Shown piece by piece: positions 21 to 2,818 of a stretch of 64,000 nt of DNA (the first letter of the stretch is position 1; each line of letters opens with the position of its first letter). The DNA comes from Lachnospiraceae bacterium (GTDB lineage: Bacteria; Bacillota; Clostridia; Lachnospirales; Lachnospiraceae). The translations under genes and the position numbers were made by a program. The stretch is from positions 1 through 64,000 of the forward strand of contig JAUNDG010000011.1 of NCBI GenBank assembly GCA_030526195.1, written 5' to 3'. The notes beneath the pieces are model-generated. The model was not told the origin of the DNA. It saw nothing but the letters and a program-made list of their open reading frames with translations, and ran no database searches.

Positions 21-76
21 CGTTGGATTGTGAACACAGGGCGAATTTTCTCTCCAGGTGTGTTCACAATCCAACG
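21..76. repeat. Perfect 18-bp inverted repeat
   Basis: The 18 bases at 21-38 are the exact reverse complement of 59-76, with a 20-base loop. A third partial copy of the arm (CACAATCCAACG) lies at 162-173, itself flanked by a short TTTACCG/CGGTAAA inverted repeat. The stretch 1-211 holds no convincing gene. The hairpin has no T-run, so it is not an obvious terminator. It may be a recombination or protein-binding site or the remnant of a small repeat element. The sequence shows the repeat; any function is unknown. Confidence 0.7.
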
Positions 77-2414: not shown

Positions 2415-2442
2415 TTGCACGGGAGGTCAATCGTGATATAAT
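2415..2442 (+). promoter_or_regulatory. Promoter of the RiPP precursor gene
   Basis: TTGCAC (2415-2420), 16-bp spacer, perfect TATAAT (2437-2442). The leader is about 35 bases and carries AGGAGGG at 2473-2479 before the ATG at 2485. It is divergent from the kinase promoter. The sequence between the two promoters (2259-2414) shows no gene, but EcoRI, XhoI and NotI sites cluster near 2320-2348. Confidence 0.72.
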
Positions 2443-2484
2443 ACACCATATCTAAACAAAAAAAAGACTCACAGGAGGGAAACG

Positions 2485-2766
2485 ATGAATACACTTGAAG
2501 CCTTTGCTAAATTAAATGATGATAAAGCACTCGCCGAGAAAATTCAGGCAGCCGCCAAAACACCGGAAGATGTCTATGAAGCTTTAAAGGGTATCGGTTT
2601 AACTGATGATCTGGACACTTTCCTTGCTGAAGCTGCCAAGTATTCAGAAGCCTACTCTCAGCTGAGCGCAGAAGAAATCGAAAGTCTGTCAGGTGGCGGC
2701 ACAACCATCACAACACTGACAACATTCACAACATATCCGATTTCTGCAGCTCTGGCAGGTATCTAA
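2485..2766 (+). CDS. Nif11-like leader RiPP precursor peptide
   Basis: A 93-residue peptide with a Nif11-type leader: a helical, acidic N-terminal region (LEAFAKLNDDKALAEKIQAA, then TPEDVYEALKGIG) ending in LSAEEIESLSGG, the classic double-glycine cleavage motif near residue 71. The core after GG is short and unusual: the repeated pattern TTITTLTTFTTYP and then an Ala/Gly-rich tail. It holds many Thr and one Ser but no Cys, so ordinary lanthionine rings cannot form within it. It has its own strong promoter, an AGGAGGG ribosome binding site and a strong terminator. No modification enzyme, peptidase or exporter lies nearby, so it is an orphan in this window. The family call is secure; the nature of the mature product is unknown. 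Confidence 0.85.
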   Translation: MNTLEAFAKLNDDKALAEKIQAAAKTPEDVYEALKGIGLTDDLDTFLAEAAKYSEAYSQLSAEEIESLSGGGTTITTLTTFTTYPISAALAGI

Positions 2767-2786: not shown

Positions 2787-2818
2787 CAAGACAGCACCCC
2801 GGTGCTGTCTTATTTTTT
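2787..2818 (+). terminator. Intrinsic terminator after the RiPP gene
   Basis: A 10-bp stem AGACAGCACC/GGTGCTGTCT (2789-2798 and 2801-2810) is followed by TATTTTTT. It ends the single-gene transcript of the RiPP precursor. Confidence 0.88.

Follow-up and report, generated by a model that had tools for sequence, protein, structure and literature searches.

We analysed the first 64,000 nucleotides of contig JAUNDG010000011.1 (here C10) of a Lachnospiraceae bacterium (assembly GCA_030526195.1), hereafter the window, near whose start lies a short gene for a putative precursor of a ribosomally synthesised and post-translationally modified peptide (RiPP; Table 1). The genome is a draft assembly of the metagenome-assembled genome (MAG) type with 43 contigs and 96% completeness; "distant" refers here to different contigs, and C10, which holds the window precursor, C11 and C12 are unjoined. 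The encoded protein is Cys-free throughout its 93 residues, and Thr provides 8 of the 21 residues of its core (TTITTLTTFTTYPISAALAGI), arranged in the units TTI-TTL-TTF-TTY. The G+C content of the gene is 44%, against 52% for the window.

Table 1 Coordinates of the precursor gene, its expression signals, its closest relatives and the enzyme loci. Positions without a prefix refer to the window.
Feature	Position	Strand	Remarks
Weak -35-like hexamer TTGCAC	2415..2420	+	3/6 consensus letters, 16 nt upstream of -10
Extended -10 promoter element TGATATAAT	2434..2442	+	perfect match; sequence reading
Ribosome-binding site AGGAGG	2473..2478	+	6 nt upstream of ATG
RiPP precursor gene	2485..2766	+	93 aa, ATG start, no Cys
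Leader, residues 1-72, ending SGGG	2485..2700	+	alignment of 8 precursors; TIGR03798 E 4.9e-5 (below cut-off)
Core TTITTLTTFTTYPISAALAGI, four TTx units and Ala/Gly-rich end	2701..2763	+	translation; relatives' cores aligned
Intrinsic terminator	2788..2811	+	10-bp stem
Paralogous precursor A	C12:12696-12971		45% identity to window precursor
Paralogous precursor B	C12:32141-32425		47% identity to window precursor
First half-cluster on C12	C12:10721-15255		
Second half-cluster on C12	C12:23574-37651		
YcaO and LanM pair on C11	C11:71528-67135	-	
L021 precursor 1	L021:8285-8562		
L021 precursor 2, closest intact relative	L021:13188-13475		58 nt behind LanM

A protein search over this genome and 98 relatives returned two strong paralogs (E 1.3e-19 and 8.2e-18), both in the same genome, which holds three precursors; four matches in other genomes were weak (E 8e-4 to 0.0074) and are not counted as relatives. 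A profile built from the three precursors and run over 42 genomes of the genus (own and 41 others) matched strongly in no genome but the own one, with two weak matches elsewhere (G026, E 9e-4; G010, E 0.0045) that are likewise not counted. When seven precursors were searched against 392 genomes of the order (own and 391 others), the own genome alone matched at E 0.001, three times. Further relatives came from named genomes scanned for two short patterns of the YcaO alignment, which yielded 57 loci; a LanM match was also present at four of these and a precursor match at three (L021, L022 and L023), counts that are lower bounds because many of the loci end at contig ends. Over the whole genomes, L021 (JAUNDA010000057.1, a Eubacteriales MAG) holds two precursors, one of them as two pieces, L022 holds two and L023 one, all inside clusters, while both matches in the L024 genome were weak (E 1e-8 and 0.008). 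The initial annotation had named a lack of homologous peptides in related genomes as grounds for giving up the prediction; such a lack nearly holds in the genus (two weak matches in 41 genomes) and the order (0 of 391), and fails elsewhere, at L021 to L023. Because of its two genomic paralogs and a full-length relative in another MAG, we conclude that the ORF (open reading frame) is real and not a chance occurrence.

Eight precursors were aligned with MAFFT. G70-G71 is invariant among them, so that cleavage at the double Gly is expected after residue 71 or 72, and the seven full-length precursors have in common K25-T26, L34-K35, G38-L39-T40-D41 and G70-G71. Thr doublets occur in all eight cores, although a Thr-rich sequence yields doublets by chance; Cys is found in one of the eight, that of C12A, and the family cores are otherwise Cys-free and Thr-rich. 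The window gene and L021 precursor 2 have 30 codons in common, with silent differences at 35 others and residue changes at 28; the non-synonymous divergence (dN) is 0.21 overall, 0.16 in the leader and 0.41 in the core, and the synonymous divergence (dS) is saturated. These values point to purifying selection on the gene, stronger for the leader.

Calling the leader a typical Nif11 leader, as was done at the outset, was too strong, as the curated models score the window precursor below their cut-offs (TIGR03798: E 4.9e-5, 23.5 bits, cut-off 32.3; PF07862: E 0.02, 15.6 bits, cut-off 23.8). At E <=0.1, TIGR03798 matches five of the seven precursors, the window one best, PF07862 matches the window one only, and PF04604 (Type-A lantibiotic) matches two weakly; for a nitrile-hydratase-like leader, no NCBIfam match was obtained at this threshold for any of the seven. 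A search of the whole genome with the Nif11 model gave no match at E 0.001, because these leaders score below the model. The Nif11 label is therefore a weak one for the window precursor.

The gene appears to carry its own expression signals. The terminator initially assigned to the gene is confirmed, with a folding z of -5.35, a value equalled by none of 200 shuffles. The promoter is of the extended -10 type, with a perfect -10 element and a weak -35 hexamer, and a sigma-70 consensus scan of the window did not place the -10 element at 2434-2442 among its predictions. The motif TGNTATAAT occurs five times in the window against 1.2 expected. A perfect extended -10 motif stands 36-57 nt upstream of three of the eight family precursor genes (the distance is 36 nt for L021 precursor 2 and 57 nt for the L023 precursor), three further genes have a match of seven of the eight letters, and the remaining two only five or six; in 1500 random 140-nt stretches per source, the perfect score was reached in 0-2.2% and seven of eight letters in 4-11%. 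L021 precursor 2 is also followed by a terminator-like hairpin (read by eye) and, equipped with its own extended -10 element and hairpin, such a self-contained precursor unit could move without losing expression.

Enzymes of the kinds that modify and export RiPPs are present in the genome, on other contigs. YcaO, DUF4135, C39 and rSAM_ocin_1 (over cut-off), the enzyme families searched for in the window, are all absent from it, in agreement with the initial annotation, which saw no enzyme beside the gene and proposed a genome-wide search for LanM, YcaO, radical S-adenosylmethionine (SAM) and C39 genes. Whole-genome profile searches found three YcaO, two LanM-type and two C39 domains, together with two B12-radical-SAM C-methyltransferases over cut-off and one weak, below-cut-off match on contig C8. 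YcaO, DUF4135 and rSAM_ocin_1 matches over cut-off are confined to C11 and C12, and the window precursor thus lies outside the enzyme clusters. On C12, the first half-cluster comprises a YcaO, precursor A and a B12-radical-SAM C-methyltransferase, and the second a methyltransferase, a C-methyltransferase, a YcaO (C12b, which resembles E. coli YcaO, PDB 4q84), a LanM, precursor B, an HlyD-like gene, a C39 exporter of the ATP-binding cassette (ABC) type and a second ABC gene. The two C-methyltransferases reach 525 and 560 bits with TIGR03975 (cut-off 282). The best PDB match of the C12 methyltransferase is LahSB (6uak, E 3e-68) and that of the C12 C39 domain is LahT150 (6mpz, E 3e-37); the genome thus has a LahSB-like methyltransferase and a LahT-like exporter, both on C12 and neither adjoining the window precursor. 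The third YcaO and the second LanM form the pair on C11, both with intact reading frames, and no precursor was found on C11 by profile searches, in the ORF list or in the roughly 1 kb read on each side of the pair.

The counterpart of this precursor-less pair is found in L021, where a C-methyltransferase gene is followed by precursor 1, whose frame is broken, and then by YcaO, LanM and precursor 2. L021 precursor 2 is 64% identical to the window precursor over all 93 aa by BLAST (70% in the MAFFT alignment), and the open 61-aa part of precursor 1, which adjoins the same YcaO-LanM pair, is 75% identical (MAFFT). The L021 YcaO is 76% identical to the C11 YcaO against 51-57% for the C12 copies, and the L021 LanM is 64% identical to the C11 LanM against 46% for the C12 copy. 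In the trees, the window precursor groups with L021 precursor 2 (support 100/99, precursor 1 left out), the C11 YcaO with that of L021 (100/100) and the C11 LanM with that of L021 (100/99). The leader motif EAYSxLSAEEIxSLSGG is common to the window and L021 leaders and occurs in neither C12 leader. Since the stray precursor and the precursor-less C11 pair correspond to neighbours in L021, the window precursor looks like a substrate whose cognate enzymes have become separated from it.

Both LanMs of the genome belong to a type that appears to have kept dehydration and lost cyclisation. In LanM enzymes, D-x-H-x-E-N is a motif of the dehydratase, and WCxG and CHG are zinc motifs of the cyclase. 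These roles are consistent with what PMC10676384 states about zinc ligands. D-x-H-x-E-N is kept in all six LanMs of this type, including both of this genome, and WCxG or CHG in none; among ordinary LanMs of the family, taken as a control, both zinc motifs are present in 9 of 11, the two without them being 766 and 920 aa long. Of 14 other family genomes with a match, 11 supplied these controls, and some of the nine look near-identical (L123/L124) and so are not all independent; at E 1e-30, 15 of 397 family genomes match the LanM, with a full-length match only in the own genome. An enzyme that dehydrates and has no site for ring formation suits a core lacking Cys. With no Cys in 93 aa and no cyclase zinc motifs in either LanM, the system falls outside the lanthipeptides, as the initial annotation had anticipated in excluding lanthionine rings.

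Among known systems, the closest is the lah cluster of Lachnospiraceae bacterium C6A11, in which nine precursors (LahA1-9) have leaders called Nif11-type and diverse cores and are accompanied by the exporter LahT (PMC6363468), unusual class II LanMs (LahM1/M2; PMC10373908) and the C-terminal methyltransferase LahSB (PMC11285071). Our system resembles it in the double-Gly leader, in the LanM without zinc motifs beside a YcaO, and in having LahSB and LahT150 as best PDB matches. Because of these PDB matches and the pairing of YcaO with a zinc-less LanM, we file it as a further lah-type member, an assignment by system features that leaves the LahA sequences outside the comparison. Unlike lah, the window precursor stands outside any cluster, the same-cluster arrangement being found for the L021, L022 and L023 relatives, and C12 has two B12-radical-SAM C-methyltransferases, which are unmentioned for lah in the literature consulted. 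The dehydrazoles (carnazolamide, CcaM/CcaB) likewise combine a YcaO with a LanM whose cyclase domain lacks zinc, and CcaM is reported to dehydrate a Ser that precedes an azole (PMC10676384). The same paper cites an earlier YcaO and LanM case lacking zinc ligands, with a reference line that names Lachnospiraceae (Huo 2020), which we take to be the lah work on C6A11. The system described here differs from the dehydrazoles in its leader, which is not of their nitrile-hydratase-like kind by the NCBIfam search above, in its Cys-free Thr core and in having no recognised azoline dehydrogenase, a family for which no genome-wide search was made; two small nitroreductase-like genes (C11:71863-72372 and C12:3485-4060) score below all curated cut-offs listed. 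Prochlorosins, which bear thioether rings (PMC6363468), are similar in that precursors lie away from the LanM and unlike in that Cys and zinc motifs are lacking here. In the thioamitides, a YcaO acting with dehydrated Thr would be conceivable, but PF07812 (TfuA) has no match at E 0.001 genome-wide, and the YcaO-TfuA thioamide route was therefore set aside. A role of the YcaOs as S12 methylthiotransferase accessories was also rejected: the nearest named family, NF040716, gives the C12 YcaOs 228-242 of 700 bits, and the genes sit among RiPP genes. TTx-repeat cores are not named in the titles and abstract openings of the literature searched, from which we claim no absence from print.

We favour, with a probability of roughly 0.6, a reading in which the window gene encodes a RiPP precursor of the lah type, modified in trans by cognate enzymes that are now encoded elsewhere in the genome. 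The leader, expressed from its own promoter, would be recognised by the C11 YcaO and/or LanM; the LanM would phosphorylate and eliminate core Thr to give dehydrobutyrine (Dhb), with no rings forming because there is neither Cys nor a cyclase with a zinc site, and the YcaO would introduce an ATP-dependent backbone change, whose type we leave unspecified. From C12, the B12-radical SAM enzymes may contribute C-methylation and the LahSB-like enzyme a C-terminal methyl ester, and a C39 exporter, most likely that of C12, would cut after the double Gly and secrete the core, which is probably an antagonistic or signalling peptide. A narrower proposal, modelled on the dehydrazoles, is that each Thr-Thr doublet is a two-enzyme unit in which cyclisation of the second Thr to a methyloxazol(in)e by the YcaO is followed by dehydration of the first by the zinc-less LanM. 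We regard it as speculative and probably incorrect; neither a partner for azoline formation nor a dehydrogenase was recognised, the dehydrogenase family being outside the genome-wide searches. If true, this would yield a linear, ring-free repeat of Dhb-methyloxazol(in)e-x, lighter by 36 Da per doublet (38 Da if oxidised) or about 144-152 Da for four, and a core chemistry absent from the literature consulted would be made in trans from a stand-alone gene.

The findings support what was first proposed, a RiPP precursor without lanthionine rings that probably undergoes Thr dehydration or an azoline-type change and would need an enzyme in trans: YcaO, LanM, B12-radical-SAM and C39-exporter genes adjoin the paralogs, the LanMs lack the cyclase zinc motifs, and an intact relative in L021 stands beside the ortholog of the precursor-less C11 pair. 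The gene is an orphan at its locus but not in its genome, where two paralogs, YcaO and LanM are present. The complete C12 cluster could instead have the window precursor as its third substrate, handled by promiscuous enzymes as in the prochlorosins, with the C11 pair as a relic. The B12-radical SAM, methyltransferase, HlyD-like and C39 exporter genes occur together only on C12, the leader positions listed above, G70-G71 among them, are conserved across the seven full-length precursors, and in the prochlorosins many precursor genes lie at a distance from that of their LanM (PMC7268733). This alternative is nonetheless unlikely, as the trees place the closest precursor and the closest YcaO and LanM with C11 and L021 and not with C12, the leader motif shared with L021 is missing from the C12 leaders, and the C11 frames are intact. 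That a C39 exporter alone acts, releasing an unmodified class II-like bacteriocin or pheromone, is improbable: two such exporters in the genome, a double-Gly leader and the gene's own promoter element and terminator speak for it, but all strong relatives found (both C12 paralogs and the five in L021 to L023) adjoin modifying enzymes, a pattern that YcaO-led sampling favours, and every aligned core has Thr doublets. Least weight is given to a decaying remnant of a lost cluster whose expression has ceased, which we consider very improbable. The solitary position, the lower G+C content, the absence of matches in the 391 other genomes of the order and a core that evolves faster than the leader would suit decay, yet the frame, ribosome-binding site, promoter element and terminator are intact, silent codon differences outnumber residue-changing ones, and enzymes of the cognate type are present with open frames.

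Several observations weigh against modification in trans by the C11 pair. The case for C11 in particular depends on a single relative, L021, and on the lack of a detected precursor near C11, and the enzyme neighbourhood of the relatives is partly built in because the named loci were reached via YcaO. L021 has a B12-radical SAM gene beside its pair whereas C11 has none, and the frame break in the leader of L021 precursor 1 could reflect assembly error or decay. The C12 LanM scores below the NCBIfam LanM cut-off (238 of 304 bits), though above the Pfam cut-offs for DUF4135 and LANC_like, and the C12 enzymes may serve the window precursor too or instead. The precursor lies 2.5 kb from an end of C10 and the C11 pair 5.9 kb from an end of C11, which would leave about 8.4 kb between them if these ends meet. 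No 21-mers are shared among the six ends of C10, C11 and C12 (6 of 86 contig ends); genes of the C11 end were absent around the aminotransferase ortholog in seven genus genomes (of 13 others with a match), and window genes from 17 and 24 kb were matched in three of the seven, so that synteny is uninformative on distance. Contig mis-binning is possible, and one mis-binned contig would weaken the case.

Some further features were observed near these loci. Directly behind the C11 LanM lies a 90-aa ORF (L020:5680-5952, that is C11:66680-66952, minus strand) with a double-Gly-like leader, LEQVSGG, and possibly a small folded domain after it, which has no NCBIfam match at E 1e-5. GH3-family proteins (C12:17221-19782, C11:62669-64501 and C2:10894-12582), assigned by a Pfam match for the C12 one and by similarity for the others and mutually 26-33% identical, lie close to the two RiPP loci and to the second C39 exporter; the GH3-like protein was dropped as a system component, its C12 copy having no match in L021 to L025. 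A protein of about 440 aa, presumably AlbA-like, occurs in both the L008 and L021 regions (L008:6877-8217 and L021:4677-6002, 48% identity) and may be a conserved accessory or a mobile passenger. Some 7 kb before the C12 cluster lies a radical SAM/SPASM gene of the ACGX type (L008:2418-3491; TIGR04340, 573 bits, cut-off 400). At the very start of C10, window positions 21-76 match their own reverse complement at 77% identity, as an imperfect inverted repeat.

Genome mining often confines the search for precursors to the few genes around an enzyme, seven in one study (PMC7268733), and a substrate and enzymes that have been parted would therefore both be missed or called orphans. Here two such orphans are matched via one relative, so that their pairing could be tested by simple co-expression. 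The system, whose products are undescribed in the literature consulted, also brings together a YcaO with B12-radical-SAM C-methyltransferases and a LanM apparently confined to dehydration, on precursors whose cores are Thr-rich and mostly Cys-free.
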